A stretch of DNA of 64,000 nucleotides from Linum tenue. Taxonomy: Eukaryota > Streptophyta > Magnoliopsida > Malpighiales > Linaceae. The notes under the pieces were generated by a model. That model made no database searches, was not told the DNA's origin, and saw only the letters and a list, made by a program, of their open reading frames with translations. Numbering within the stretch: position 1 is the stretch's first letter; each line of letters opens with the position of its first letter. This document shows, piece by piece, positions 7,880 through 62,823 of this stretch. The stretch lies in assembly GCA_946122785.1 (NCBI GenBank), contig CAMGYJ010000003.1:558001-622000 (forward strand), in the 5' to 3' direction. The position numbers and the translations under genes were made by a program.

Positions 7880-8428
7880 TCTCAATTCTCTAAAATTGTT
7901 ATTAGCTTGAAACACAGATCGTGAATTCGAGATGGTGTCTCCCTCCCCTGTTCAACACTCGGTCATATTTACAGATAGAACTTGAACTTGGAAGCAGGTT
8001 CGGACTTCGGAGTCGGAGTCGGAATCTGTAATCCCAAAGGAGAAGGAAAAGAAAAAACAGAAGAAAGAAACAAGTCAAACCCAAACCTCAGAGCCCGTTT
8101 CCCCCAACTCCATTCTTCTGGGCTCTGGCCCATCTCGTAGCCCAAACCTATAGTTTACTTGTCAAACGATCCAAAAAATAGTAGCTTATAACCGATTCGT
8201 TGGTCGGAGGAGTTGAGACGAATATTGAATTATTAATATGAACGTATTAATGCTCTTCATTCATGTATGCTGTGAGGGCAACATCTCATTAGTAACTTGT
8301 CATTAGTTGGTAATGGAATAGGGAATAGTGATATGAATTTGTTTCGGCGTTTAGGATAACAAAGAAAGCTGCAGAAATAAGACCTACTTCGATTTAATTA
8401 AACTTAACAAGAAGAAACATACTATCTA

Positions 8429-8777
8429 GGGTAATGTCTATTTTTTATCCAAATGACCAAATCTTTTTCAGATTCTTTTATATTATCCAAACCTATTAAA
8501 ATGCTATTAATTAGCCAAATCTTTTGTAATGCATCAAAATATTAGCCATTTTTACGCTATTGTTAATAATTATGTAACACTTTTCTTAGTTAAAATACTA
8601 AAATTTTGGAATGTTGACATTCATGTGTCTCTTCCAAGTCAGTATCATGTTGCCAAGTCAATATTACTAACAAAATTGCTAACTGAAAGTAACATTTGGC
8701 TAATTCTTAGTATTTCGATAGGTTTGGATAATATAAAAGAATCCGAAAAAGGTTTGGATAAAAAATAGACATTACCC
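8429..8777. mobile_element. 349-bp MULE-type MITE, copy 1
   Basis: Inverted ends begin GGGTAATGTCTATTTTTTAT on both sides, and a perfect 9-bp target duplication TACTATCTA flanks it (8420-8428 and 8778-8786). The first ~75 bp at each end are inverted copies. No coding capacity. The same element with the same target duplication sits in duplication copy 2 at 36567-36915, so it was inserted before the duplication. Confidence 0.85.
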
Positions 8778-8786
8778 TACTATCTA

Positions 8787-10254
8787 TGTCCTTCTTGTTT
8801 GTTTTATCTTTCCACCATAGTGAGCATTCGCAAGAAAAAAGAGAATGTCAATAAAACTGATGAACGTTGTGGACCAATGGTGCTATAGCATCGTGTTTTT
8901 TTTTATAGTGATCAGAAGTTATGACAAACACATACAATCTTTGACAATAACAATAACAACATCAATGTTGTCAATACTTCCGTGTAGTGATGGCCTAGGT
9001 GGGATCCAAGGGTGGTCAGAGATTGGAAAGAGGAATGCACACTCTGGATAGCAGCCTGTGCTAAATAAATAAAGAAGTGAAAATGGTAAAACTAATATAC
9101 ATGACTTTTTCTTCATTCAAATAAATCTTGTCATAACTAATAAATAATTGCAATGTCAAAAATAGGATGAACTCTAATCATTACAACATCCAAATAAAGA
9201 ATTTCATCAAGTGCCCCAAGCTTTCACTTGTCTATTCTCTAGTATATTAATTTTTTAATGGAACTGTATAAGTACTACGTAGAGGATATATTCATAACAA
9301 CATAAATTACATCCATTGTTCTTTAGATCAACACAGTTCCACTGAAAAAAAAGCAAAAATGTCCATCTAAATGTCCACAACCCGGTAAGATGTACAAGTG
9401 GTTTCCTAAGTTGACCTGAAAAATAAGCAAAAATGTCCACAACCCGGTAAGAAAAAGCTTCATGCAGACTTAAAGATCTCTATGCACAACCCACACCACA
9501 GGAATTAGTAGCAAAAAGATTTGCAAACCCAAAAGAGAACTGAAATTTTTCTAGTTCTTGGAATTAACATCATGCAAAAGACACCCACATAAACAGATGC
9601 AAGTTTGTTTTTGTTGAAAGTTGAAGCACCCAAAAATTAATTGCGATAACATTAGACATTGATATGATATAAGTTAAATGTTAATGGCATTCCAATTTCC
9701 TCTTCAAACTCCCAAAATTTTGCATATAAGAAAAGCAACCTTAGCATATACATCTAAATGACAACTAAAAAAATAATAATAAGAAAACCACTTGTACAGG
9801 AGCGAAAGGGATAAGCTCGAGGAAAGGGTTTTCTTCAAAGAGCAGGCTATGCATATTTCTGTAATTCAAAGAGGAGCGGCTTCATACCAGTAAACTACAT
9901 GAATGTCAATCAGCTAGATCAACTCCACTAGAATAGTAATCAAGTAATCAAACTATGCATTGTGTCAAATGATATAATGTTCATACTATTTCTAAGCAAA
10001 ACAATAGATAACAGTCGGAAAATAATAATATTGCACTCACCGAGAGTTATTATAACCTACTTCTATATGAACAACTAAACCGAAGACTTTAAAGAAGGCA
10101 GAAGAACCCTAAATTTAACTACAATCAAACACAAATCAGCAAGATTTTCGATTTTTTTGAGAGCCAACTACACAGAGAGAAAAATTGAAGTATATCTAAA
10201 ATTCTCCAAGCAAGTTGAAGGCAAACCATAACTTTAAGATATTCATAATAGCCT
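8787..10254. other. noncoding part of duplication copy 1
   Basis: AT-rich, no ORF with recognisable features. It matches 36925-38409. No second exon for F-box B was found here. Confidence 0.5.
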
Positions 10255-10857
10255 TCAACTATTGATGTAGGGGCTGGCGAATTGGAACTTGAAGATGTCC
10301 ATGTCGCAGTTCCGTAGGGTCAAGTGTTTGAGAAGCTCCTGCCGCCTTCTTCCCGACAAAAGACTGCTCAGGGAGAGTCCTCCGTGCGGCGGACGGCTTA
10401 GAAAGGATACGACTTTGGATCGGCAGTAGATGCAGGCGCCATCCACCAATGGCGCCGTGGTTTTGGATCTGTCCTTATTGAATTCGATCCATCCGCAATG
10501 GGGATCCTCCGGTTCAAAATTCAGCCCTAGAGAGTCGATGGAGAACTCGGTACGGCGGTTTCTCAACCGGGTGCGGGCCGGGCGGAGAAGGAAGAGCTCT
10601 CCCCGAAGGATAACCTGGTCGACCCAGCTCAGGAATTCACCCACGGTGTCGAAGCAGGAGATTGGATAACCGTCGGGCATGAACTTGGTGATGTCGTTGC
10701 CGGCGAAGTGGCTGTTCGGCAACACCGGCGACCTCCACTGACTCCACCATCGGCGGGTGAGGACGCTGGTCCTCGCCGCCTCGTAAAGCAGCAGCGCGAT
10801 GGCTATCTTGCCCAGTAGCTCCGCCGACAATTTGCGAAAGTAAGGATCTTCGTCCAT
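10255..10857 (-). CDS. F-box protein B (truncated family member, 200 aa)
   Basis: A single open exon starting MDEDPYFRKL, homologous to exon 1 of the F-box genes at 7289-7879 and 31378-31985. The frame diverges after FQFASP and stops within five residues, so the leucine-rich-repeat exon of genes A and C is absent. The F-box itself has drifted: the usual L-P start is L-S, and P-L-D is L-L-Y, residues kept in gene D. That suggests relaxed constraint. The central GYPISCFDTVGEFLSWVDQV block is conserved. It lies in tandem with gene A, 2.4 kb apart. It may encode a short F-box-only protein or be a pseudogene; I favour a decaying copy. Its upstream region (10858-11100) is shared with gene D. Confidence 0.55.
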   Translation of the reverse strand: MDEDPYFRKLSAELLGKIAIALLLYEAARTSVLTRRWWSQWRSPVLPNSHFAGNDITKFMPDGYPISCFDTVGEFLSWVDQVILRGELFLLRPARTRLRNRRTEFSIDSLGLNFEPEDPHCGWIEFNKDRSKTTAPLVDGACIYCRSKVVSFLSRPPHGGLSLSSLLSGRRRQELLKHLTLRNCDMDIFKFQFASPYINS

Positions 10858-11970
10858 TCTTATTCTTTAATAATAAATAATTACTTGAATTGTAGCACTG
10901 ATTGTGTCTCCCGTGCTCCACCTTCATTCTTATTTATAGCCTACAGTACATGTAGAACTCGGAACTTGGATATAGTTGGGAGTTCGGATGCGGAAGCTTC
11001 TTTTTTTTTTTTTTTTTTTTGTAAGATCGGATACGGAAGCTTTACTCCAAAAGGAGAAGGAAAGCAGAAAACAGAAGAAGGAAACAAGTTAAACCCAAAT
11101 AGTTAGGGCTTTTTATTCGTGATTGGGCCTCATGTGTGGACCTTTTCACCCTTATTTTTCTAGGATTTTTTATTTTTGAAAAAATGAAAAATGTTTTGTA
11201 AAACAAATAACCAGAATCTCAGATTAAAAAACTGTTTTGAAAATATATAATTAACCTTATCATATTTTATTTAAGAACATGTAATTTTCTATCATATTTA
11301 TCATTTTAAAAATTAACAAATATAAACAAATATTATTTAATAAACAATCAAACAAAATCCATTTTGACTACTTTATGTTTTATAATTTTTATTCATATTT
11401 TATATTAGAAATTATTTTTTTAGTAATTTTACATGATTTCTTATAAAAAAAACACTTCAAATAGTTTTTCAACAAAACACTCAATATTTTTTTGAAAAGT
11501 ATTTCTCTAAAACCTCATCCAGAAGCTGCTTCTGCAAAAACTACAGCATGACCACTAACTTGTTCTAACTACAACATCCCGATCGACGGCCAAGTAAAAC
11601 CGCCGACCAGGTGTAGCATAGGGCAAGCAAGCAATAATAATTTATCGTGCAACGGGGATCTAGACTTACCCTACTTCAGGTTTATGGTTCGTTATCTAGC
11701 CAATCTAGAGTAGTGATTAGGGAAACTAAACTAACTAACCTAACTAACCACTAACCTAACTATTTAAAAGGTTGGGAGCTCTCTTGTGTTGAATCCCCCT
11801 ATTTTCATCCTTTGGATCGTTGTTGAGTATCCTTCTAGCTCAATCAACTCAAATACTCTACCGTTAGGAGATGGACTCCCGCGGGAATGACCCAGAACGG
11901 CGAATCCATGAATGGGGTATGCTCTATTCAACCTAGGGCAACCCTATATCGTAGGAGATTGATGGAATCG

Positions 11971-36307: not shown

Positions 36308-36566
36308 CGAAAAAATAGTAGCTTATAACCGATTCGTTGGTCGGAGGAGTTGAGACGAATATTGAATTATTAATATGAACGTATTAATGCTCTTCATTCA
36401 TGTATGCTGTGAGGGCAACATCTCATTAGTAACTTGTCATTAGTTGGTAATGGAATAGGGAATAGTGATATGAATTTGTTTCGGCGTTTAGGATAACAAA
36501 GAAAGCTGCAGAAATAAGACCTACTTCGATTTAATTAAACTTAACAAGAAGAAAACATACTATCTA

Positions 36567-36915
36567 GGGTAATGTCTATTTTTTATCTAAATGACTAAAT
36601 CTTTTTCAGATTCTTTTATATTATCCAAACCTATTAAAATGCTATTAATTAGCCAAATTTTTTGTAATGCATCAAAATATTAGCCATTTTTACGCTATTG
36701 TTAATAATTATGTAACACTTTTCTTAGTTAAAATACTAAAATTTTGGAATGTTGACATTCATGTGTCTCTTCCCAGTTAGTATCATGTTGCCAAGTCAAT
36801 ATTACTAACAAAATTGCTAACTGGAAGTAACATTTGGCTAATTCTTAGTATTTCGATAGGTTTGGATAATATAAAAGAATCCGAAAAAGGTTTGGATAAA
36901 AAATAGACATTACCC
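36567..36915. mobile_element. 349-bp MULE-type MITE, copy 2
   Basis: Same ends and same 9-bp target duplication TACTATCTA (36558-36566, 36916-36924) as the element at 8429-8777. It is a paralogue by duplication rather than an independent insertion. Confidence 0.85.
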
Positions 36916-36924
36916 TACTATCTA

Positions 36925-38409
36925 TGTCCTTCTGGTTTGTTTTATCTTTCCACCATAGTGAGCATTCGCAAGAAAAAAGAGAATGTCAATAAAACTGAGG
37001 AACGTTGTTGACCAATGGTGCTATAGCATCGTGTTTTTTTTTTTTTTTTGAGTGATCAGAAGCTATGACAAACACATACAATCTTTGACAATAACAATAA
37101 CAACATCAATGTTGTCAATACTTCCGTGTAGTGATGGCCTAGGTGGGATCCAAGGGTGGTCAGAGATTGAAAAGAGGAATGCACACTCTGGATACTCTGG
37201 ATAGCAGCCTGTGCTAAAAAAATAAAGCATTGAAAATGGTAAAACTAATATACATGACTTTTTCTTCATTCAAATAAATCTTGTCATAACTAATAAATAA
37301 TTACAATGTCAAAAATAGGATGAACTCTAATCATTACAACATCCAAATAAAGAATTTCATCAACTGCCCCCAAGCTTTCACTTGTCTATTCTCTAGTATA
37401 TTAATTTTTTACTGGAACTGTATAAGTACTACGTAGAGGATATATTCATAACAACATAAATTACATCCATTGTTCTTTAGATCAACACCAGTTTCACTGA
37501 AAAAAAGCAAAAATGTCCATCTAAATGTCCACAACCCGGTAAGATGTACAAGTGGTTTCCTAAGTTGACCTGAAAAATAAGCAAAAATGTCGACAACCCG
37601 GTAAGAAAAAGCTGCATGCAGACTTAAAGATCTCTATGCACAACCCACACCACAGGAATAAGTAGCAAAAAGATTTGCAAACCCAAAAGAGAACTGAAAT
37701 TTTTCTAGTTCTTGGAATTAACATCATGCAAAAGACACCCACATAAACAGATGCAAGTGTGTTTTTGTTGAAAGTTGAAGCACCCAAAAATTGACTGCGA
37801 AAACATTAGACATTGATATGATATAAGTTAAAGGTTGATGGCATTCCAATTTCCTCTTCAAACCCTCAAAATTTTGCACATAAGAAAAGCAACCTTAGCA
37901 TATACATCTAAATGACAACTAAAAAAAATAATAATAAGAAAACCACTTGTACAGGAGAGAAAGGGATAAGCTCGAGGAAAGGGTTTTCTTCAAAGAGCAG
38001 GCTATGCATATTTCTGTAATTCAAAGAGGAGCGGCTTCATACCAGTAAACTACATGAATGTTAATCAGCTAGATCAACTCCACTAGAATAGTAATCAAGT
38101 AATCAAACTATGCATTGTGTCAAATGATATAATGTTCATACTATTTCTAAGCAAAACAATAGATAACAGTCGGAAAATAATAATATTGTACTCACCGAGA
38201 GTTATTATAACCTACTTCTATATGAACAACTAAACCGAAGACTTTAAAGAAGGCAGAAGAACCCTAAATTTAACTACAATCAAACACAAATCAGCAAGAT
38301 TTTCGATTTTTTTGAGAGCCAACTACACAGAGAGAAAAATTGAAGTATATCTAAAATGCTCCAAGCAAGTTGAAGGCAAACCATAACTTTAAGATATTCA
38401 TAATAGCCT
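36925..38409. other. noncoding part of duplication copy 2
   Basis: Matches 8787-10254. No gene is visible apart from short stop-limited frames. Confidence 0.5.
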
Positions 38410-39012
38410 TCAACTATTGATGCAGTGGCTGGCGAATTGGAACTTGAAGATGTCCATGTCGCAGTTCCGCAGGGTCAAGTGTTTGAGAAGCTCTTGCTGC
38501 CTTCTTCCCGACAAAAGACTGCTCAGGGAGAGTCCTCCGTGCGGCGGGCGGCTTAGAAAGGATACGACTTTGGAGCGGCAGTAGATGCAGGCGCCATCCA
38601 CCAATGGCGCCGTGGTTTTGGATCTGTCCTTATTGAATTCGATCCATCCGCAATGGGGATCCTCCGGTTCAAAATTCAGCCCTAGAGAGTCGATGGAGAA
38701 CTCGGTACGGCGGTTTCGCAACCGGGTGCGGGCCGGGCGGAGAGGGAAGAGCTCTCGCCGACGGATAACCTGGTCGACCCAGCTCAGGAATTCACCCACG
38801 GTGTCGAAGCACGAGATTGGATAACCGTCGGGCATGAACTTGGTGATGCCGTTGCCGGCGAAGTGGCTGTTCGGCAACGCCAGCAATCTCCACTGACTCC
38901 GCCATCGGCGGGAGAGGACGCTGGTCCTCGCCGCCTCGTCAAGCGGCAGCGCGATGGCTATCTTGCCCAGTAGCTCCGCCGGCAATTTGCCAAAGTAAGG
39001 ATCTCCGTCCAT
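38410..39012 (-). CDS. F-box protein D (200 aa, truncated family member)
   Basis: An open frame starting MDGDPYFGKL with a well-kept F-box (LPAELLGKIAIALPLDEA, SVLSRRWRSQW), then the family block GYPISCFDTVGEFLSWVDQV and the segment WIEFNKDRSKTTAPLVDG. Like gene B, it diverges after FQFAS and stops at once, lacking the leucine-rich exon of C. It keeps the consensus residues that B has lost, so it may be the functional member of the B/D pair. It lies about 6.4 kb upstream (minus sense) of gene C. Without a substrate-binding part it would be an unusual F-box protein. Confidence 0.6.
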   Translation of the reverse strand: MDGDPYFGKLPAELLGKIAIALPLDEAARTSVLSRRWRSQWRLLALPNSHFAGNGITKFMPDGYPISCFDTVGEFLSWVDQVIRRRELFPLRPARTRLRNRRTEFSIDSLGLNFEPEDPHCGWIEFNKDRSKTTAPLVDGACIYCRSKVVSFLSRPPHGGLSLSSLLSGRRQQELLKHLTLRNCDMDIFKFQFASHCINS

Positions 39013-39321
39013 TCTTATTCTTTAATAATAAATAATTACTTGAATTGTAGCACTGATTGTGTCTCCCGTGCTCCACCTTCTTTCTTATTTATAGGCCTAC
39101 AGTACAGGTAAAATTCGGAACTTGGATATAGTTGGGAGTCTTGGGAGTTCGGATGCGGAAGCTTTTTTTTTTTTGTTTGTGAGATCGGATGCGGAAGCTT
39201 TACTCCGAAAGGAGAAGGAAAAGCAGAAAACAGAAGAAGGAAACAAGTTAGACCCAAATAGTTAGGGCTTTTTATTCGTGATTGGGCCTCATGTGTAGGC
39301 CTTTCCCTTTTTTGCTAGGAC

Positions 39322-49448: not shown

Positions 49449-49790
49449 ATGAGTGAGGAAATGGAGGTGAGTGACGGGATGGAAAAGGAAGAGATCACGG
49501 AGGACCAGTCAGAACGACTGGGGGGGCTGGCACCCGAAATGGATGAGAGGGAGGAGAGTGGTAGCATGTTTCGAGGGTCGGAAGGCGCCTCAGTGACGAA
49601 GAGAGAGTTGTTCAGAATCATTGAGGACCAAGATGGAGCAATCGAGGCGCTCCGAAAAGAGGTCGATGCCCTGAAGAGAAGTGGAGGAATGACACCTAGT
49701 CCGACGAAGAAAAGAGAGAGGGTAGCGGAGACGGAAAGTGAATCGGGGTACCAGAGGCGCCCCAGTTTGTGGCGCCCGCGCGAGCACTGA
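49449..49790 (+). pseudogene. gypsy #2 gag N-terminal part, out of frame with the rest
   Basis: ATG at 49449 opens a 113-codon acidic frame (MSEEMEVSDGMEKEEITEDQ) with a short coiled coil (ELFRIIEDQDGAIEALRKEV). It overlaps the main polyprotein frame by 53 bases and stops at 49788-49790. In related elements these parts form one gag. I read this as a frameshift mutation, though programmed frameshifting cannot be excluded. Confidence 0.7.
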
Positions 49791-52700
49791 AGGGCCAGAT
49801 ACAGGAGGATGGGGTGGAGGAATTTTGGGGCGTCTGTCTCGTCACGGACCCGTGAAACAACCGTTAGCGCGAAACGTACTCGCGGAACCAGCGGGGACCA
49901 ACATCCCCCCACTCCCCACCTATGATGGGGTCACTGATCCAGAGGACCACCTCAATGGTTATTTCACAAAGATGCAGCTTTACAACAGCACAGACGCCAC
50001 CCTGTGCAAGGTGTTCCCGTCGACCTTCTCTGGAGTGGTGCTTGATTGGTATTATCAAATCGAGGAAGGGCGCATTGAGTGCTTCGAGCAGTTCGCGGAG
50101 ATGTTCCTCGCGAAATTCGCTAGCAGGAAACGGCGCACCCTAACCATAGGCGCCCTGTTCAAGATCAAGCAAAGAGAGGGAGAGGCGCTGAGAGAGTTTT
50201 ATGAGAGGTGGTTATCTGTGGCTCTGGCGGTGAAGGATGTGCAGCCCTCAGTGTTAGGAGTGTGTTTGAACGAGTGCACCACCAGCGAGGAGTTGTGCAG
50301 ATCGCTGGCGAAGAGAGACGTGGCATGCACGGAAGACTTAGATCACCGGGTGCAAAAGGTGATCATGATCGAGGAAACGTTGGCGGCCAGAAGGGCCGAC
50401 CGACGAAAGGCAAAAGGAGAAGAGATGGAGCCGACAAGGAGGCCGCACTTTGCAGGCAATACGGGGTATGCGCCCGCAAACCCCCCTCCTCCCAGGAGAG
50501 TGGACGCCGGGCGTCCGGCGCCCAGGGGACCCTTTGCTGAATATACAGACACGCTGAAGAACATACTCCAACATGTCAAGGAGAAAGGATACCATATCAG
50601 GTGGCCGGGCCCCATGAGAGGACAGCCCAACGAGCGGAACCTGGATCGATATTGTGACTTCCACCGAGAGGTGGGACACCACACGGCCGATTGTTACCAA
50701 TTGAAGACCGAGTTGCAAGGATTGGCTGACAGGGGGATGCTCAATGACTTCGTCAAGAAGCCTGAAGAAAGAGTGCACCGGGCCTGCGTGGCCGGTGTGG
50801 AAAAAACGACAACGGAAAAGCTACCATCACCGCCATATGACCTCGACCAAGAAAATGCACCCGAACGGGTGCGCCTGACAATAGAGGCTATTTCGGGTAC
50901 GATGGACTTGAGGGAGAAGATAGAGGCCAATCGTCGCTTGAGGGCGGCGTCGGCGGAAGTCCAGGAGGCCATAGACATCAGTTTCAATAGGGCACCCGAG
51001 GAAGCGTGCATGCTCCCATCCATGGACGCCCTGGAGATACAAGGTGTGGTGGCAGGGTGCCAGGTGAGGAGAATGCTCGTGGACACAGGGAGCTCGATGG
51101 ATGTGCTATTTAAGGACACAGTGGTCCGCATGCAACTATCGCCGGATCTGATCAGGCCCTCAGAATCAGTGTTAGTTGGCTTTTCAGGGGCGCCCGCCAA
51201 GGTGATAGGGCGGGTGCGCCTGCCAGTAACCTTAGGGGATGGGGAGCAAAGGATGACGCGTGCCATCGATTTTGGAATAGTGGACTGTCCGTCACCATAC
51301 AACGCGATCCTGGGGAGGCCCCTCCTGGCCTTATTTAATGGCGTGGCCTCCACATGCCATCAGACGTTGAAGTTCATTGCGCCACAAGGTGTGGGTGTGG
51401 CGAGAGGAAGAGGCGCCCCGCGTTATGCAAAAGAGACTGGACGGAAAAGGAAGGGTAACGAAACAGTCAATATGGTGGAAGTCTCGGCGGAAGAGGCGCC
51501 CCGAGCAGAAGCTGCCGACAAAGAACTTCTGGTAGCGCTAGACGTGGAACGCCCGGACAGACAAGTAAGGATATCAGCGGAGGCGCCCGAAGAGGTGAAA
51601 GAGCGCATCATTGCTCTTCTGAGGGAGTTTGCTGAGCTTTTCGCCTGGAGTGCTTTGGAAATGCCAGGCGTCGCCCCCGAAACGGCCGTGCATCGACTGG
51701 CGGTAGAAGAAGGGAAGCGCCCTGTGCAGCAGAAGCGAAGAAATTTGTCGGTGGAAAAGGAGGCGGCACTCCGAATCGAGGTAGATAAGCTCATGGGCGC
51801 CAACTTGGTGGAGGAAACATCCTATGTCACTTGGCTGTCAAACGTGGTTTTTGTACCGAAGCCGTTAGGGGATTGGAGAATGTGTGTGGATTACACAAAC
51901 CTGAACAGAGCATGCCCAACTGACGCCTATCCAATGCCCCGCATAGATCTACTAGTAGACGCCACGGCATACCATGAGATGTTGAGTTTTGTGGACATGT
52001 TCTCAGGATACCATCAGATCCCGATGGCAGAAGAAGACCGTCCCAAGACAGCTTTCATGACACCTTTCGGAAACTTTTGCTATCGGGTCATGGCGTTTGG
52101 CCTCAAAAATGCGGGCGCCACTTATCAGAGGATGGTCAATAACGTCTTCCGCAAGCAAATTGGCAGAAATGTGGAAGCCTACGTAGATGACTTGATCGTC
52201 AAGAGCCGAAGACGCGAGGACCACCTGGAGGACTTGAGGGAAACGTTTCAAGCTATGCGGGCGCACAATCTCCGTCTCAATCCATTAAAGTGCGTATTTG
52301 GCGCTGAAGCGGGCAAGTTCCTGGGTTTCATGATTACCAAACGGGGCATCGAGGCCAATCCGAAGCAAGTGGATGCTGTTCTCCAATTGGCACCACCAAA
52401 GGCGCCCAAGGAAGTTCAAGGTTTGGCAGGAAGATTAGCGGCCTTGGGGTGCTTCATTCCCCGGTCAGCAGACAAGGCGGCCCCGTTTTTTCGGACGCTA
52501 AAAAAGGGAACACGTTTCCAATGGACGGCGAAATGCGATGCAGCGTTTGAAGAATTAAAGCGACTCCTGGCCGCCCCAACAGTCATGACGGCGCCCAAGG
52601 AGGGAGAGACATTGTACCTTTATATCGCTGTGTCAGAAGTATCAGTAAGCGCAGTACTCATCTCAAGAGAAGCCCGCTCAGGAGAGGAAAAACCGGTGTA

Positions 52701-53495
52701 CTATGTCAGTCGGACCATGGTGGCTCATGAAAGGCGATACGCACCCATCGAGAAGGCGGCACTGGCAGTTGTGATGGCGGCGACCAAACTAAGGCCATAC
52801 TTCCAGGCGCACACCATCGTGATACTCACCAATCTTCCGTTGAAATCCACGCTGGGATCGATGGATGTGGCCGGGCGCCTCGTCAAGTGGGCGGTTCAGC
52901 TGAGTGAGTTTGACATCAAATACGCGCCCCGACCGGCGATAAAAGCACAAGTCCTGGCTGACTTCATCGCGGAAGGAGTAGCGGAGTCGGAAAAGGGCAC
53001 GAGTGAATGTTGGCAAGTGCAAGTGGATGGAGCCGCCAGTCGTACGGGCGCAGGAGCAGGGATCGTGATGATAAGTCCAGGTGGTACAATGCACGAAGTC
53101 GCGTTGCGATTCGCAAAGCTGAAAACGAACAACGCCGCCGAATATGAAGCAGTAATCGCTGGCATGAGCATGGTCAAGGAGTTAGGCGCCCGCAAAGTGC
53201 AGGTCAGGTCTGATTCGGCCCTGGTGATTAATCAACTTAATGGTGTTTTTGAGGTTAAGGAGGAAGCACTAGAAGGGTACGTGCGAAGGGTGCGAGAGCT
53301 GGGGGCTTGGTTTGGGGAAATACCTTCATACACGTCCCGCGTGAAGAAAATGCCCATGCCGACGCCTTGTCCAAGCTAGCTACGACAATAGATTTCGAGG
53401 AGGAGCGAAAGGTCATTGTCACCTCTGAGGCGCCCTGTGAACACCTGATCGCTGTCATATCCGGCGGGGGCGTCAATTCAGGATGGATGGCGCCC
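49738..53495 (+). CDS. gypsy #2 gag-pol: gag, protease, RT, RNase H, second RNase H
   Basis: A 1,213-codon frame to 53379. Domains by approximate residue: retrotransposon gag (80-180; STFSGVVLDWYYQIEEG, REFYERW), zinc-finger-like CDFHREVGHHTADC (306-319), aspartic protease LVDTGSSMDVLF (446), reverse transcriptase (700-880; VFVPKPLGDWRMCVDY, catalytic YVDD at 815-818), RT-linked RNase H (about 955-1060), and a second RNase H (from about 1090; VQVDGAASRTGAG, NNAAEYEAVIAGM, RSDSALVINQL). A frame change near 53310 moves the end of the second RNase H (VPREENAHADALSKLA) into another frame, which runs to the MULE insertion at 53496. The ATG at 49738 is internal to gag and not a natural start. Products would build virus-like particles and copy RNA to DNA in the cytoplasm. 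Confidence 0.9.
53487..53495 (+). repeat. MULE target-site duplication, left copy
   Basis: ATGGCGCCC, identical to 61567-61575 and in the same frame context of pol on both sides. Confidence 0.95.
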
Positions 53496-53587
53496 GAGTT
53501 TTTTCCAGAAATAGCACCTTTAAAAAAAAAAATTACAAAACTAGCACCCGCCCAAAAATATTTACAAAACTAGCACCTTTTTTTATT

Positions 53588-53962
53588 GACCGCACCCTCC
53601 AGGTGCGGTTTACATATAAAACGCATCCCCCAGGTGCGTTTTAAATGTAAACCGCATCTGGAGGGTGCGGTCAATAATTGTGGGCCTAAACCGCATCTGG
53701 GCCATGCGGTTTCATGTCTGGCCTACATGAAACGCATGGCCGAGGTGCGGTTTAGGCCTGACCTACCTAAACCGCACCTTAGAGATGCGGTTTCTGCGTT
53801 CAAGAACAAACCGCATCTCTAAGGTGCGGTTTTGACATGTAGACCGCACCCCCCAAGTGCGGTTTACATGTCAATAATTTTCCGACACCCGACACACCAT
53901 GCAGAGGATTATGGACGTAGGGCTGCATGCAGACTAAAACCGCACCCTAGAGGTGCGGTTTT
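53588..53962. repeat. left subterminal array of palindromes (about 9 units)
   Basis: Nine units of ~20-25 bp follow the plan (A)ACCGCA-N8-10-TGCGGT(T), for example ACCGCACCTTAGAGATGCGG. Some have ACGCAT/ATGCGT arms. Units are 15-35 bp apart and the array ends 14 bp before a TATA box (53977-53983). Confidence 0.9.
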
Positions 53963-53976
53963 CACAATTTTTTCCC

Positions 53977-53983
53977 TATATAA
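53977..53983 (+). promoter_or_regulatory. TATA box of the MULE transposase gene
   Basis: TATATAA directly downstream of the left palindrome array, about 370 bp before the ATG. The intervening leader contains a probable intron. Confidence 0.6.
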
Positions 53984-54069
53984 GACTTGCCGGAAAACCT
54001 CAACTCTTCACACCTCTCATTCTCTCTTTCATTTTTCTGTTGTATATCTATATTTATTTAGTGTGTTTG

Positions 54070-54289
54070 CCATTAAGATCAACTCGTAAGTTTATTTTGT
54101 GTTACTTTTTATGCCATTAACATTAACTCGTAACTTTATTTTGTGTTACTTTTTATGCCATTAACATTAACTCGTAACTTTATTTTGTGTTACTTTTTAT
54201 GCCATTAACATTAACTCGTAACTTTAATTTGTGTTACTTTTTATTGCATTAACATTAACTCGTAAGTTTATTTTGTGTTACTTTTTATT
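54070..54289 (+). repeat. five 44-bp tandem repeats carrying splice-donor-like sites
   Basis: Units start at 54070, 54114, 54158, 54202 and 54246. Each contains ACTCGTAASTTTA; the first and last read GTAAGT and the middle three GTAACT. They lie in the leader of the transposase gene, whose ATG is directly preceded by an acceptor (GTGTGCAG, ending at 54349). Confidence 0.9.
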
Positions 54290-54349
54290 GTTATTTGTGA
54301 TCTGTGATTTTTATGATATTAACTAAAACTATGGTTTGTTTGTGTGCAG

Positions 54350-57300
54350 ATGGCATTCCGTCAGTTGTTGCTTGGCTTACGGTGGAATGGTTACACGGAA
54401 GACACCGGAAAGGGGGCCACCTACGTCGGTGGCAATTTTCAGAAAATAACGGTCGGTACCAGACCGAAGCTTGAAGACCTCCATCGAATATGCACTGACG
54501 TTACTTGCATGGATGGCACGAGGAGGGTAGATCGTATGGTGTACCGATACCCAAACAGAGCAACTGGGTCATTGTGGCATGAGGAATATACCATAACCAC
54601 TCAAGATGACGTAGATTCCATGCTCGAATTCTTGAGGTCCAACAAGTTGGCCAAAGCCGAGATGTTCGTTTACACCGAGCCAGCCGTTAGTGTTGGAGGT
54701 CATTCTGGACACGGTCAAACATCTGGTATCCATGGTGGTGGTGAATTATATGACGATCATCCCTACCAAAGTTACCATGATCCTCATTCCTATTTTCAGT
54801 ACCAAGATGGAGGGCAAGGTGCAGGCCATCATCAATCTTTCTCGTCATATGAAGAAGAAGTTCAACCGGACATCCCCAACCAAGCCCAGTACAACTTCCT
54901 GACAGGCAGCGGTAGTTTTCACAACTACCATTATGGAGCTGATGAAGGTGCCTTTCATGAGCAGGATCATACGGAGGCTGCCACACCAGGACCAGTCAGC
55001 GGCCCCTCTGATGAAGAAGGAGAGAACAACGTCAGTGCAGACAGCTCAGACCCTCTTGAAGGTGCTGATGATTCAGCACCAGATTCAAATTCAGATAATG
55101 ATCATGATGTGGCTCCTGACCGTGTACCAGTCCCCTACTACAATCACATTCCAGACGACAATTGGATGGTCGACAGCGACATGGAGCCGCCAGAGGTCCC
55201 AATATGGGGCCCACTCACTGGGTTTACGAAGGGCCAACAATTTGGCTCGAAGAAGGATGTGCGGCACGCCCTTGAGACTGAAGCAATGACTCGGCATTTT
55301 GAATGGGACACAACTCATTCCAACACCAAAAGGCTCATAGTCAGATGCCGTAATCATCACGAGGGGTGCAATGTTAGGATTCGTGCCATCAACAGCAAGA
55401 GACACGGCCACTGGGTCATATCCCGTGCGGTCAACACACACACATGTGTGTCATCCATAACTTCCCAAGGCCATCGACAGTTGAAATCCAGGGTGGTTGC
55501 TGCGGCTATCAAGCATCTGATTGAGGCTGAACCGGATCTGAAGGTGAAAGTCATAATCGCTGACATTGCAAGTCGTTTTGGTTATATGATTAACTATAAG
55601 AAGGCGTGGCATGGAAAGCAGAAAGCTATGGCCGCCGTCTATGGTGATTGGGAAGAATCATATGCATTCCTTCCCAGACTAATACTGGCATTGGAGGCGT
55701 CTAACCCTGGGACTGTGTTCTCCCCTCGATACCAAGATGAAGAGATACAACCCCCAGAGGCAGGTAACGAACGCCATTTTCGCAGACTGTTTTGGGCATT
55801 CAAGCCTTCTATTGATGGTTTTGGCTTTTGTATCCCTGTGATTACTGTGGATGGTACATTCCTTACCGGCAAGTACAAGGGCACTCTCCTGATTGCCAGT
55901 GGGGCGGATGGAAACAGACAAGTCTTTCCTTTAGCCTTCGCCATTGTTGAGGGAGAGAATGCTGATAGCTATGGATGGTTTTTCCGACAAATCCAAATCC
56001 ACGTCACCAAGAGGACGAACCTGACAATAATCTCTGATCGGCACGCCGGCATCAGAGCAGCCATCTTAGGCCTGGATCCAGCCTGGAATTGGTCCCAAAG
56101 GTGGTGCATACGACACTTCAAAAGCAACTGGAACCATCATTTCAAACGGAAGAAGCTAGCTGATAATTTGTGGTGGATTGGTAACCTCTCTATTGCTCTC
56201 AATTAACAATATCTTGTAATATCTGGAGTGGTGCACTTGTTAGACTCTTTCTAAAGAGATGCATGACTAAGGAAATGGGGTTTTAAGCGATTATGATGGT
56301 CCTCCCATTTCCTGGGAAAATCGGGTTTTAAGCGATCATCGGATCCCCCCTTTTTCTGTCAAACAGGCTGTGTTTCTAAGGAGATGTATACCTCTCCTAA
56401 GAGTCTAACGAGAGTCCGACCAACCAGTTTGAAATTGTACTAAATTGAGGATCATTTACTAACATACGACTTTTCTGTGTGTTATTCAGCGGTTGCATAC
56501 CAGGAGAAAAAATTTCAGGAGAAGTTGCAAAAGTTGCGCGAGTTATGCCCTGAAGGGGCACAGTGGCTGGATGGACATGACCTATCCATGTGGACATTTC
56601 ATAAAGATGGAGGCAAAAGATGGGGTATTGCCACAACCAACTCAAGTGAGAGTATCAACTCTGTCTACAAGGCCGTCCGTGCACTGCCAATCTCTGCCAT
56701 TGTGGAGATGACATTTTGGAAAACGAATGCATGGTTCGTTAACCGTCTCCACTGGGCAAGGACAAACGAGGCACAGGGAAAGGTCCATGCCTATAAAGTC
56801 ACTGAAATAATGGACAGTGACAATCGCAAGAGCAGTCGACATAGTGTAACCGTTATGAATCGTTCAACTGGTGAGTATAGCGTGACGACCGGACATCGGG
56901 AGGATGGTAGACGGGGGGGTCACAGTCACGAAGTTTTGGTCAATTTCAGGACCAAAGTTGGTGAGTGCTCATGCCAGAAGTATCAGGGGAGAGGATGGCC
57001 TTGTTCTCATGCAATGGCCGTAATTAAAAAGAGGAGCAAAGACCCCCGTCACTTCGTTAGTCCATTCTTCAATATCGACTCACTCAAGAGCACCTACGGA
57101 CGGAGTTTCCGTGCATTGCCTGATGAGGCTTATTGGCCGCTGTACGAAGGGAAATTGATCGTCCCGCCATTCGGACAGAGGCGTGAACCGGGGCGCCCGA
57201 GGAAAAAGAGAATTCAGAATGAAATGGATCAAAGTGGAAGACCACCACGAGGCCCAAGACGGTGTTCAGTATGCAAAGTTCCAGGACATGATAAACGAAG

Positions 57301-57367
57301 GTGTCCAGGACCGATTGGCCCTCAAAATCCGGGTGATGATGTCCCGGAATCAGCTAATGCGACGTAA
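54350..57367 (+). CDS. MULE transposase (MuDR-type, 902 aa, 2 coding exons)
   Basis: Exon 1 is 54350-56180 and exon 2 is 56490-57367; donor GTAACC, acceptor TTCAG, phases 1+2 agree. The start is the ATG at 54350, next to a leader-intron acceptor. N-terminal ~110 residues (MAFRQLLLGLRWNG) are followed by an acidic linker. A MuDR DNA-binding domain (about 290-360; FGSKKDVRHAL, RCRNHHEGCNVRI) comes next, then the MULE catalytic domain with Asp in TVDGTF (501), Asp in SDRH (563) and Glu in SSESINS (about 664). The SWIM zinc finger is CSC...CSHA (from about 770), with a C-terminal knuckle CSVCKVPGHDKRRC. Family knowledge: binds terminal repeats in the nucleus and cuts and joins DNA. The intron falls between the second Asp and the Glu. 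No stop or frameshift seen. Confidence 0.93.
56236..56412 (+). repeat. 177-bp repeat inside the transposase intron
   Basis: The ends GTTAGACTC...GAGTCTAAC are inverted. The segment matches 60369-60545 read on the minus strand (shared GGAAATGGGGTTTTAAGCG, CGGATCCCCCCTTTTTCTGT, AGATGTATACCTCT). It lies within the intron 56181-56489. Confidence 0.9.
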
Positions 57368-57568
57368 TTTTCGATTATCATTCGTCAAGCTATTTGTAAC
57401 TCTTACGTTGCATTTAATTGTGTATTGTTGATTGAACGAATTTGGATCATATCAAGTCAAGAGGAATCATGATAATAACAATTTGATGAAAATCAACGAA
57501 ATATGATTGATGGAATTAAAGGGAATAGTTCAAAGTACATAGAGATAAAAATCAACTCAAAATACATA

Positions 57569-60500
57569 TCAAGGAAGTCCACGAGCGGATGCGGAACCCA
57601 CAGTTTTCTTGCTCCTTGTACGCTTGCCGACGGGAGTAACAATGGGTGGTGGAGGTGGCAAGTGGGGAGCGGCCGAGGTAGTGTGGCGCTCGTCGGTGCT
57701 ATGTCGGCGGGGAATCGGCACTTCCGGGGTCGAGCGGGCGACATCGGCGCTCATACGGTGAGGAGTGGGAGGCCACTGCTGATGAGGAGGTCGATTCCAT
57801 GGGGTGAACTCGTGTTGGCCTGTGGTGGAGGAGCCATCATGAAAAGTCCCAGATGATGTTTGGCGGGGAGATAGCCGGGAATCAAAGTATGCTCCGCGGG
57901 GATCGAAGTATGCTCCGCGGGGATCGTTGTATGAGATCGGGGTGGGAGATAATGGGGCTTGGTGGAAACTCTGAGAGGATTGATGGTAGGTCGAGCGGGG
58001 ATCGTAGTATGAGCTTTGGTGGAATTCGTTGTGGCCGGCATCTTGTGAAAAAGTCGGGCGGGGAGATGGGGCGGAGGACGGGCGGGGAGCTTGGGTGGAA
58101 CTCGGTCCGGCACCTTGGGTTGAACTCGGTCCGGCACCTTGGGTGACAACCAATGGGGGCGGCACACTCCACCCCCCAAATGGTTGTACCTCGGGCTCGA
58201 TGGGCCTTTCCCGAACCCTCTTCGGCTGCTTTCTCTCGTAGGGTGGTGGGGGTGCGGGGACATCATGTTGTACCTCAGGTGGTGGGGGTGTGGCACGCGG
58301 CGGATATCTACGATGATCTCGGCGCTGAGCTCTGATACAGCCAAGTAGACTGTTTGCAATCCTCCTGATGTAGCCCACATCTTCATTGCCCAAGTCATTT
58401 CTTCCGGTAGTAATATCTTTAATCCGCTCGACCCCATCAACCTAAATCACAAAAAACAAAAAAAGTTACAAAGAGATTTTAGGAACCAAGTAATAAATCA
58501 TAGTATACTTAGACTGGTTATACTTACTAATGCACCATCGGCCGCACCCTCCGGAGTCATGTAACGAACCGATGTTTGCCGATATCGATCCAAGTATGGG
58601 TCATGATACCCCATTCGGCCCACTTGATTTGGAGTGACAATATCCTGTAGTTGTCGGTTCTCCCAAATCGCGATGAATTCCTTCAACTTCGTCGGCCAAT
58701 CGCGAGTACCTTGCCAACCATCTCGGCCATGGAAGGCCCTTTGACTTTCGGGGACCTCCAACGGAATGCACTGTTCCCGACCAAACTGACGGAGGCATCG
58801 ATCCGGCAAGTGCCACTCCACGGTCCCAAAACAAATTAGAGGAACCCTCGTGCACCATTGTCCGATATGATCGGGGAATTGCTGGAGATGCCATTGAACG
58901 ATGTTCTCCGGGTATGGATCGAAGACGATCTACAAGATAGAAATGAGTAACGTAAGATTAATTAATTAGAAAAATACATGTAGTCCCATGAAAAACAAAT
59001 ATAAATGGATCGCTGTATAGAAGTTACCTCTCCTTCCCAAAGTCGCTCAAACCTCCTCCGATACTCCTCCAACTTGTGTTGGGCAAGGTTGTCGCATGTT
59101 GTGTGTCCAAGCCACCTTATTAATATGACAAGAATGAAACTACAATAAGATAAAACACAAGACAAAATGTGTTATGACTACATGATGGGGTATGAGAAGT
59201 TTACCTTGCTCCATAAGCTTCACCTCTTAGGGGATGATCGATTGGCCAATCCCTGTCTGGACGTTGGGCCGGTGCAAGCCATGGCATATGCTCCCAAGCC
59301 CAAAATTGGACGATGAACATTGCGCCGCCAACCTCCCTCACGGCTTTGTTCGACGCATTGCACAAGTTGTTGTAGATGATAGCTAGGCAAGCGGATGCCC
59401 AACTATACTCCCCCATCTCCTCCCAACTACTGAAGATGATCCTAAGCCATCCACAACTAAGGAGATTGCTTGATTTCTTGGAGAATAACACTCCTCCGAT
59501 CATGCCTATGAGATAGACACGAGCATATCTCTCCTTCTCATCCTCCGGACTTTCCTCGGTTAGGGGGTGACTCTCGTAATGCTCTTTAAAATACTTCGTC
59601 AACCATGTAATTGAGACTTGGTGTTTCCTCATTGGTGGCATGCGATCGGTCGCATCAACGCAACCCTTCACCGGTACTTTCACTCCCAAATGACTGTGGA
59701 TGAAATGCTGCCAACCTGGCATACCGTCACAATCCTCGGGGGGATGATCACTCACGCACACCGGTTTGCCGTCGATGGGCAGATGGGTTAGGATGGCGAC
59801 ATCCTTTAGCGTGATGGTGGCCTCTCCTTCTCTAAAGTTGAAACAATGGGTCTCCTTTCTCCATCTCTCGGCTAATGCGGTGATGAGTTGGCGATCGATT
59901 TGGATGCCGTTAAAATGCCTAATCGAGTCTAACCGTGCCCTTTTGAGAAATGGCAAGATAGCTGGGTGGAATGGGAGCACATTGGTGGTACCCCTATAGC
60001 GGATTATTGTTTGTGATTCCTAGCAAAAAATGTACACGTTTATTATTATTAGTAAGGGTTTTTTTTCGTATAACTAAATTAATTAAATTAAATTATGCGA
60101 CATAAAACATAATTTTATCATCATAAAAAGACATTTCATATTATCATAAAACAAACGTCCTAAATTAATTAACATAATAACATTGTCAATGAATAATAAT
60201 TTAAAGAGGTACATACATATTATCGTAAAACAAACATACTAAATTAATTAACATAAATAACATTGTTACTGAATAATAATTTAAGTAGAAACATACATAT
60301 TCAAATGTTTGGTAAATAATTTAATCGTATTAGTTGTTTTAAATAATTTAATCGAATACAAAGCAACACTCGTTAGACTCTTAGAAGAGGTATACATCTT
60401 CTTAGAAACGCAGTCTTTTTGACAGAAAAAGGGGGGATCCGAGGATCTCTTAATACCCGATTTTCCCAGGTAATGGGAGGATATGATAATCGCTTAAAAC

Positions 60501-60924
60501 CCCATTTCCTTAGACGTGCATCTCTTTATAAAGAGTCGAAGTAAGTGGCGCTATGTATTCGATTAAATTATTGAAAACAACCAACACGATTACAAAATAA
60601 ACATAAATTAATTTTATATTACACTAGGCACATTAACAAAATAAAAGAAGGACAAATGGTGAAGAATTGTATGTACCGGGTGATCGTTCCAAACATCCCT
60701 TGACCGATGGTTGGTTTGGTCGTACAAGTCGGTTGGATCCACCGGTCCTTGCTCGAGATAATACCGTTGGTTGTATATATCGACATCCTCCCCAACCTAC
60801 GAGAAAATAACAACGAGGTTAGTAAAAAACTTATAACAACAACAAAGATTAAACCAAAATAATGAGTACATACCGCTTGAAATTCATCAACAAAAACTCC
60901 TTCTCCTTGCCACCAATCGGCCAT
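57569..60924 (-). CDS. plant mobile domain (PMD/MAIN-like) protein in the MULE, about 782 aa, 6 exons
   Basis: Exons on the minus strand: 60874-60924, 60677-60796, 59205-60019, 59028-59115, 58528-58929, 57569-58441. All introns are GT-AG, all phases agree, and no stop interrupts. The PMD ('aminotransferase-like', shared with MAIN/MAIL1 and PP7-long-form proteins) is recognised from LPFHPAILPFLKRARLDSI, TITLKDVAILTHLPIDGKP, YLIGMIGGVLFSKKSSN, GGAMFIVQFWAWEHMPW, VPLICFGTVEWHLPDRCLRQ and HDPYLDRYRQ. The C-terminal ~240 residues are proline/serine-rich with repeats (QGAGPSST twice, DPRGAYFD twice) and a basic end (GKRTRSKK). Host PMD proteins act in the nucleus in gene expression and transposon silencing. 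Here the protein may serve transposition or counter silencing (inference). The start ATG is the first in frame. Confidence 0.88.
60369..60545 (-). repeat. 177-bp repeat inside PMD intron 2
   Basis: Same sequence as 56236-56412, in the same orientation relative to transcription. Here its flanks form further inverted repeats (AATAATTTAATCGAATAC on both sides), extending the unit to about 60322-60591. That is the look of a small MITE inside the intron 60020-60676. Confidence 0.85.
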
Positions 60925-61140
60925 TATTTCGGCGTAATTCGGACAGAGCTTCGGCTCGACTCGGAGGGTTTTGAGGAAAAACCTAAGAAATGTTTACTGA
61001 TGGCAGATCGGACTTAGCCGCAACCAACAGACCACTATTTCCTAGGCTTTTGGGAGGGGAGGGTTTAGTTAGAGAGATAAATTGTAGAGAGAGGAGGAAG
61101 AATGGGTTGTGGTGTGAAGAAATGAGAGGGGGAGGGGGGG

Positions 61141-61148
61141 TATTTATA
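61141..61148 (-). promoter_or_regulatory. TATA box of the PMD gene
   Basis: TATAAATA on the minus strand, 8 bp from the right palindrome array and about 215 bp upstream of the PMD start codon. Confidence 0.65.
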
Positions 61149-61155
61149 CCCATCA

Positions 61156-61475
61156 GACCGCACCCCCCAGGGGCGGGCTGGTAATTTTGGCCTGAGCAAA
61201 ACCGCTCCCTCCCGAGGCGTTTTGCTTTTACCTAGGGCTGACCGCATCTCGGCCAAGCGGTCTGCAGTCTTTGGCGCGGATCGCTCCCCTGGCAAGCGTT
61301 CAGCCGCCCGATCGCTCCTCCATCCAACGGCTTGAAAACCGTTCCGCAGCTGGCGCGGATCGCATTGCTGGCATGCGTTTCGTAACGGAGACCGCGCCTC
61401 CAAGATGCGGTTTATATGTAAACCGCATCCTTCAAGTGCGGTTTACTTATAAAACGCATCTTGGAGGTGCGTTCC
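61156..61475. repeat. right subterminal array of palindromes (about 8 units)
   Basis: Same plan as the left array, more degenerate on average (for example ACCGCATCTCGGCCAAGCGG). The best units are at 61380-61475. It mirrors the left array by lying between the terminal inverted repeat and the TATA box of the adjacent gene. Confidence 0.85.
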
Positions 61476-61566
61476 ATAAATATAGGTGCTATTTGTGTCA
61501 ATTTTTTCATATGTGTGCTAGTTTTGTAATTTTTTTTTTTTAGGGTGCTATTATTGGAAAAAACTC

Positions 61567-62823
61567 ATGGCGCCCATCATCTTGTTCCTCACACAGGGTG
61601 TGGTACCTGACAACCAGAAGGAAGCCTGGCGCCTACGCCGCAAAGCCGCCAGATGCTCCATAATCGAGGGGCAACTGTACAAGCGATCCCACACAAGAAC
61701 TTATTTGAGATGCCTCAACGAAGAAGAGAGCAGACAAGCAATCGAGGAGGTGCATGGCGGAACCTGTGGAATGCACGCAGGCGCACGAAGCTTGGAAAAA
61801 ACATTGCTGCGACAGGGGTTGTACTGGCCAACGATGAGGCGTGACACAAAGGCACACGTGGGCGCCTGCCACCAATGCCAGATCCATGCAAACGACATCC
61901 ACATCCCAGCAGCACCCATGCAAGGCAATGTAGGAGCCTGGCCATTCGCCCAATGGGGTATGGACCTTTTGGGCCCTTTCCTAAAGGCCCCTGGTCAAAT
62001 GAAGTACTTAATAGTGGCAGTCGACTACTTCTCCAAATGGATAGAGGCGGAACCTTTGGCGACAGTCACAGAGGCCCAAGTGCGCAAGTTCACCAGGAGG
62101 AACATTTTCACCCGATTTGGCTTGCCTGAGTCCATTGTCACAGATCACGGGAAACAGTTTGATTGCAAGAAATTCGTTGAGTTTTGTGACGATAATGGAG
62201 TGGTGTTGCGTTTCTCTTCGGTAGCCTACCCACAAGCGAATGGTCAAGCGGAGGCGGCCAACAAGAGCATTCTCCATGGTTTACACACACGACTCGCAGG
62301 CGCCAAAGGGAGATGGGTGGAAGAGCTGCCAAGTGTGCTGTGGGCGCATCGCACCACCTACAAAACTGCCACAGGAGAAACACCCTTTGCCCTCACTTAT
62401 GGAAGCGATGCAGTCATTCCGATTGAACTCAACACACCGAGTTACCCCGTGGCCCAGTACGACCCAACTAGCAATGATGAGGCGCGCTCAAATGACTTGG
62501 ACATGGTGGACGAAGTGAGGGAGATAGCGGCGATCCGCCTGGAAAAAATGAAGAGGCAGGTGGCCCGGTACTACAACAAAAAGATGCGCGCCCATGGGAT
62601 CACGGAGGGCGCCCTGGTTTTAAAACGGGACTTTCGACCTGACGCCCGTGAAGGAAAGTTGGCACCAAAATGGAAAGGCCCATATAGAGTCCGAGAGACG
62701 GTAGGACCCAGCACGTTCAAATTAGAACATATTGATGGTCGCGCGGTGAAAAGAACATGGAATGCCCAAAACCTGCGATCGTACTCGGCAGGCGCCACAT
62801 CTGGAAACGACGCCTCGGTTTGA
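61567..62823 (+). CDS. gypsy #2 integrase (pol 3' part)
   Basis: An open frame from the MULE insertion site to TGA at 62821-62823. It has an H-H-C-C zinc region (about residues 62-105; EVHGGTCGMH, GACHQCQ), a catalytic core D-D-E (Asp in GMDLLGPF, Asp in VTDHGKQFD, Glu in NGQAEAANK), W-A-H-R-T-T, and a C-terminal domain (EGALVLKRDF, GPYRVRE, RTWNAQNLRSY). The ATG at 61567 is just the target duplication; the natural frame continues from the pol frame left of the MULE. Unlike element #1 it has no stop codon. Confidence 0.93.
   Translation: MAPIILFLTQGVVPDNQKEAWRLRRKAARCSIIEGQLYKRSHTRTYLRCLNEEESRQAIEEVHGGTCGMHAGARSLEKTLLRQGLYWPTMRRDTKAHVGACHQCQIHANDIHIPAAPMQGNVGAWPFAQWGMDLLGPFLKAPGQMKYLIVAVDYFSKWIEAEPLATVTEAQVRKFTRRNIFTRFGLPESIVTDHGKQFDCKKFVEFCDDNGVVLRFSSVAYPQANGQAEAANKSILHGLHTRLAGAKGRWVEELPSVLWAHRTTYKTATGETPFALTYGSDAVIPIELNTPSYPVAQYDPTSNDEARSNDLDMVDEVREIAAIRLEKMKRQVARYYNKKMRAHGITEGALVLKRDFRPDAREGKLAPKWKGPYRVRETVGPSTFKLEHIDGRAVKRTWNAQNLRSYSAGATSGNDASV

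Follow-up and report, generated by a model that had tools for sequence, protein, structure and literature searches.

A two-gene Mutator-like element of Linum tenue carries a plant mobile domain gene maintained by selection and with a predicted VANC-like fold

The 64,000-nucleotide stretch of Linum tenue DNA analysed here (the window; contig CAMGYJ010000003.1, positions 558,001 to 622,000) holds an autonomous-looking, recently mobile Mutator-like element (MULE) with two convergent genes, one for a transposase and one for a plant mobile domain (PMD) protein. That this is a two-gene element whose PMD is maintained by selection is nearly certain. For the role of the PMD we infer both DNA binding and anti-silencing in the manner of VANC proteins, a mechanism that we put at about even (a probability of roughly 0.52), ahead of each single rival.

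Two convergent genes in one MULE

The element has the hallmarks of a MULE, with a target duplication within 8–11 bp, terminal inverted repeats (TIRs), and MULE, MuDR DNA-binding and SWIM domains. Its ends and genes are laid out as follows.

53496..61566, no strand: whole MULE, 8071 bp, Linum tenue
53487..53495, no strand: left target site duplication ATGGCGCCC, exact 9-bp match
61567..61575, no strand: right target site duplication ATGGCGCCC, exact 9-bp match
53496..53625, + strand: left TIR, 79% over 130 nt
61437..61566, - strand: right TIR, paired with the left arm, 79% over 130 nt
54350..56180, + strand: transposase exon 1 (MuDR DNA-binding and MULE domains, from profile search)
56181..56489, + strand: transposase intron, 309 bp, GT-AG, holding an insert like a miniature inverted-repeat transposable element (MITE)
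56490..57367, + strand: transposase exon 2 (SWIM; CCHC-like knuckle seen by eye), stop ending at 57367
60874..60924, - strand: PMD exon 1
60677..60796, - strand: PMD exon 2
59205..60019, - strand: PMD exon 3 (domain core; the structure-modelled part)
59028..59115, - strand: PMD exon 4
58528..58929, - strand: PMD exon 5
57569..58441, - strand: PMD exon 6 (proline-rich tail), stop ending at 57569

The perfect 9-bp duplication and the matching terminal repeats reported in the preliminary description were both recovered, the duplicated sequences being identical and the 130-nt arms 79% complementary. Judged by its sequence, the transposase is of MURA type. It matches PF10551 (8.9e-20), PF03108 (5.5e-9) and PF04434 (7.7e-7), all above cut-offs, the last of these bearing out the SWIM motif first noted; the D residues of a putative D-D-E triad were picked out by eye within the PF10551 match. 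The gene had been called uninterrupted, which holds for the joined frame of two exons (902 open codons) but not at the DNA level, where the GT-AG intron divides it.

The PMD gene comprises six exons that join into 782 open codons, with GT-AG at all five introns, in keeping with the consistent splicing first described. Its protein matches PF10536 at 2e-65 (221.7 bits against a cut-off of 34.9; profile positions 8–346 of 347), and across 16% of the PMD query a protein of Linum trigynum shows 82% identity. The two coding regions are convergent, with ends 201 bp apart, as are mudrA and mudrB in maize MuDR. A Pack-MULE identity was ruled out by the element's own open transposase and full PMD gene. 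Separately, in a public L. tenue gene model (P0004) part of a PMD is fused with an XRN exonuclease; an element has probably misled the gene prediction here.

The two genes have diverged together

A DNA search of the L. tenue genome (692 Mb), with the best 20 of 2540 candidates scored, made out 20 copies, the window's included. Five, again counting the window's, are 99–100% identical to the query and nearly full length. Target duplications match at 9/9 positions with unshifted ends in 14 copies, at 8/9 in two and at 7/9 in one, with none in three; since the 14 perfect duplications each have a different sequence, the target duplication is more than chance. Fifteen of the 20 copies keep the transposase frame open as far as its stop, and eight do so for the PMD (the window, L010 to L015, and L019), among which L015 carries in-frame indels; the PMD of L020 is open with an in-frame 510-nt deletion. 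Splice sites of both genes read GT or AG wherever they are retained across the 20 copies, so the predicted PMD junctions fit. L023 has lost about half of its transposase and L027 all of it, and together with L024, L025 and L026 they resemble the internally deleted derivatives that are usual for MULEs.

Genome searches at the protein level gave scores for the best 81 of 4829 PMD candidates and the best 50 of 5891 transposase candidates. A listed PMD lies within 10 kb of 22 of the 50 transposase loci, and among the matches listed the nearest neighbour is convergent in 21 cases and divergent in one. The divergent case belongs to a tandem element pair and is convergent with its own partner at C11:18066819; two similar copies seemingly stand in tandem at C11:18066819-18078516 of this genome. 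Five divergent elements were then fetched, L029 and L030 picked by their PMD and L028, L031 and L032 by a transposase without a listed PMD. All five carry a convergent transposase and PMD in the same place and orientation, as the preliminary description had expected of other copies.

Across 28 pairs drawn from eight elements (the window, L013, L018 and L028 to L032), divergence of the two genes is correlated at r 0.985 for synonymous (dS) and 0.96 for nonsynonymous (dN) change (Mantel p 0.0004). In both gene trees the window pairs with L030, and L028 pairs with L029 (L031 and L032 are outside the trees); a comparison of the two phylogenies had been proposed in the preliminary description. On these sequence comparisons, the transposase and the PMD have travelled together for a long time.

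The 81 PMD loci range from 66 to 98% identity, and many at 95–98% have no transposase listed nearby. Perhaps these are PMD-only derivatives, the transposase listing being the best 50 of 5891.

Selection on the PMD gene

By Nei–Gojobori counts, PMD codons 1–530 of the window differ from L013, L014 and L015 by 23–26 synonymous changes over about 338 sites and 17–19 nonsynonymous changes over about 1252, a dN/dS of 0.19 each; the transposase gives 0.26, 0.19 and 0.22. Against L028 or L029, the PMD core (codons 58–530) gives 0.18–0.19, at a PMD dS of 1.43–1.45 that is near saturation, and the transposase core 0.09–0.12. Against L030, L031 or L032 (PMD dS 0.35–0.40), dN/dS is 0.34–0.41 for the PMD and 0.18–0.21 for the transposase. 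The PMD core is thus, by codon counts, under purifying selection.

Several observations weigh against a maintained PMD. In three of the 20 near copies (L024, L025 and L026) internal deletion has taken out the whole gene or the greater part of it. Near-identical copies (the window against L010 and L012) differ by few PMD changes, mainly nonsynonymous, and comparisons with the broken-frame copies L016, L017 and L018 give 0.88, 0.45 and 0.68. The tail past codon 530 yields 0.95, 1.03 and 0.13 against L013, L014 and L015. Among L030, L031 and L032 the PMD ratio is 0.50–0.68, and L031 has many stops. Overall, the pattern is what would be expected if selection acts during the transmission of elements and decay sets in once they have inserted. 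With these exceptions the PMD frame does not evolve neutrally, and the two-gene layout proposed earlier stands, with convergent genes and a PMD maintained by selection.

A predicted VANC-like fold and a proposed role

In a fold search, the predicted fold of the PMD matched VANC21 (crystal structure 9lnj). DUF1985 and DUF287 were not found in the PMD protein, whose sole Pfam domain at E up to 0.001 is PF10536. No statement of a fold shared by the PMD and VANC21 was found in the literature searched, which was mostly open-access and without preprints; the solvers of 9lnj may well have noted the likeness. The preliminary description had offered two roles, a mudrB-like helper or an anti-silencing factor, and it is because of this structural match that we favour the second.

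In such a system, the transposase would bind the element ends and cut and paste the element, and the PMD protein would bind DNA of its own family. Candidates for the bound DNA are the AAACCGC-N11-GCGGTTT palindromes close to the element's termini or, alternatively, the two tandem arrays, one ahead of the transposase gene and one inside PMD intron 2. Bound there, the PMD would counter epigenetic silencing, as VANC21 does for VANDAL21; with silencing relieved, the transposase would be expressed and the family could spread. The candidate sites are listed here.

53605..53961, no strand: left subterminal cluster of 12 AAACCGC/GCGGTTT half-sites, partly paired as AAACCGC-N11-GCGGTTT
61199..61444, no strand: right subterminal half-sites (4)
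54068..54288, no strand: 44-bp tandem array, 5 units, upstream of the transposase ATG
60137..60301, no strand: 79-bp tandem array in PMD intron 2

The 44-bp array has 3–5 units in 19 of the 20 copies and is deleted in L027. The 79-bp array has 2–4 units in 13 copies, L021 carries a 139-bp doublet, and no array was found in six of the 20. Arrays and the enriched AAACCGC motif, putative binding sites, thus vary from copy to copy. Genome-wide, the palindrome occurs 5678 times against 6 for a reversed control, with varied spacers and frequent clusters among the places listed; a single dimer-like site thus seems to be common to numerous other elements.

Because several near-identical copies keep both genes open, the PMD is under selection and there is a structural lead, the function of a PMD encoded by a transposable element (TE) becomes directly testable, and a testable job for a long-puzzling partner gene suggests itself. 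A broader proposition, which we hold tentatively and somewhat short of even odds, is that PMD and VANC proteins form one structural superfamily, in which MULE PMDs would be widespread VANC-type sequence-specific anti-silencing factors. If true, the antisense PMD known from numerous plant MULEs would represent a conserved counter-defence gene, the host silencers MAIN and MAIL1 would be related to the proteins that transposons use to escape silencing, and VANC, TE-borne PMDs and the host MAIN/MAIL1 pathway would be united in one fold.

Alternative roles for the PMD

We consider it unlikely that the PMD is a mudrB-like transposition helper, acting in insertion as a transposase partner or target-capture factor and not on silencing. 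We know of no link between a PMD and insertion. The two-gene layout resembles that of MuDR, in which MURB is needed for integration (PMC8224964), and the tight co-divergence of transposase and PMD fits a physical partnership. Beyond layout and co-divergence, however, the mudrB role finds no specific support; the sole clear structural match of the PMD is an anti-silencing DNA-binding protein, and L024 and L025 lack most of the PMD yet have perfect target duplications, although the deletion may postdate insertion or the PMD may act in trans. For this half of the earlier proposal, no evidence tying the PMD to insertion was found.

Protein contacts could instead be the means, the PMD hijacking or jamming the host MAIN/MAIL1–PP7L complex without sequence-specific DNA binding. 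The PMD shares its Pfam family with MAIN and MAIL1, two proteins that interact with one another and with PP7L (PMC7156037), and TE-encoded PMDs as a counter-silencing strategy are already in print (PMC8616336). We nonetheless regard this as improbable: the fold match is to a DNA complex, and the clade of Linum elements has a long branch (1.59) in the PMD tree and stands apart from the PMD-only entries P0001 and P0002, with weak support for its own placement.

Host-gene capture is frequent in MULEs. A transduplicated host gene carried as a Pack-MULE-style passenger would suit the commoner breakage of PMD than of transposase frames and the relaxed-looking C-terminal tail in two of three near comparisons, but it is very improbable, contradicted by purifying selection on a PMD that has co-diverged with the transposase past dS 1 and by the constant place and orientation of the gene in the five divergent elements.

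Insertion site and further repeats

Joining the flanks at 53301-53495 and 61576-61800 (about 420 bases, one duplication removed) leaves a single frame open across the site, and the host of the MULE insertion is a Ty3/gypsy element. This host lies at 49738-53379 and 61567-62823. Its long gag-pol frame stops at 53379 and is not the frame, encoding RNase H and integrase, that reads through the insertion site; a frameshift therefore seems to have occurred upstream.

A further repeat lies within the element.

56240..56415, + strand: MITE-like insert copy 1, in the transposase intron
60366..60540, - strand: MITE-like insert copy 2, in PMD intron 2

One MITE-like sequence of about 175 bp thus sits in introns of both genes, in sense orientation relative to each. 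The best 40 of 1371 genome candidates are all 100% identical to copy 2, itself included; of those 40 places, 17 have a listed PMD locus within 3 kb, against 23 that have none so close. In L028 one member of the pair precedes the transposase and the other lies inside PMD intron 2, at 99.7% identity over 310 bp. Elsewhere in the window, two 3-kb stretches (8173-11165 and 36310-39320) are 96% identical, and further long repeats tie 6.5–11.5 kb to 30–41 kb.

Comparison with known systems

Many plant MULEs carry PMD genes, and host silencing factors contain the domain as well. The MULE clades MUDR, MUDRAVI2, MULE-Monocots, MDR and MULE-Solanaceae_1 have been tabulated with an antisense PMD (Dupeyron et al. 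2019, PMC6446971); it occurs in most MUDR-clade elements, and most MUDRAVI2 elements have a PMD, often antisense. Because of that table, the Linum element joins an already known kind. It shares with those clades the SWIM transposase, the antisense PMD and, where stated, 9-bp duplications; it was set beside them by description, and the available text of that paper does not analyse the PMD for selection, copy by copy or in structural terms.

According to Ikeda et al. 2017 (PMC5418596), who also treat Ty3/gypsy PMDs and offer an anti-silencing use of TE-borne PMDs as tempting speculation, the first description of the PMD came with a MULE of rice. With that speculation printed and the antisense PMD tabulated (PMC6446971), the idea of an anti-silencing PMD in a MULE is less new than the preliminary description implied. 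MULEs captured PMD-C genes twice, in grasses and in Amborella, as transposase fusions (PMC5418596); these too are PMDs carried by MULEs, whereas the Linum element, in a eudicot, has two separate convergent genes. Tea has 175 phased small interfering RNA loci at PMD genes (PMC10673657), as would be expected if the host responds to PMDs carried by TEs. A 2021 review lists the PMD as a domain of unknown function (PMC8616336).

Maize MuDR is likewise a two-gene MULE with one terminal repeat beside each gene (PMC8224964). Its TIRs are about 200 bp, against 130 bp at 79% in the Linum element, and mudrB is, in the available part of that paper, a novel protein not described as a PMD.

VANDAL21/Hiun (PMC5735166) differs in having a third gene, VANB, in carrying VANC21 motifs arrayed in one orientation where the Linum motifs form palindromes, and in VANC proteins with DUF1985/DUF287, to which the Linum PMD has no detected sequence similarity. 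For VANC21, DNA binding and hypomethylation have been demonstrated (PMC5735166), whereas the Linum PMD is likened to it by predicted fold. The two MULEs have in common an accessory protein whose predicted fold is the same, repeat arrays located in introns and ahead of the transposase gene, and an accessory gene that evolves faster than the transposase.

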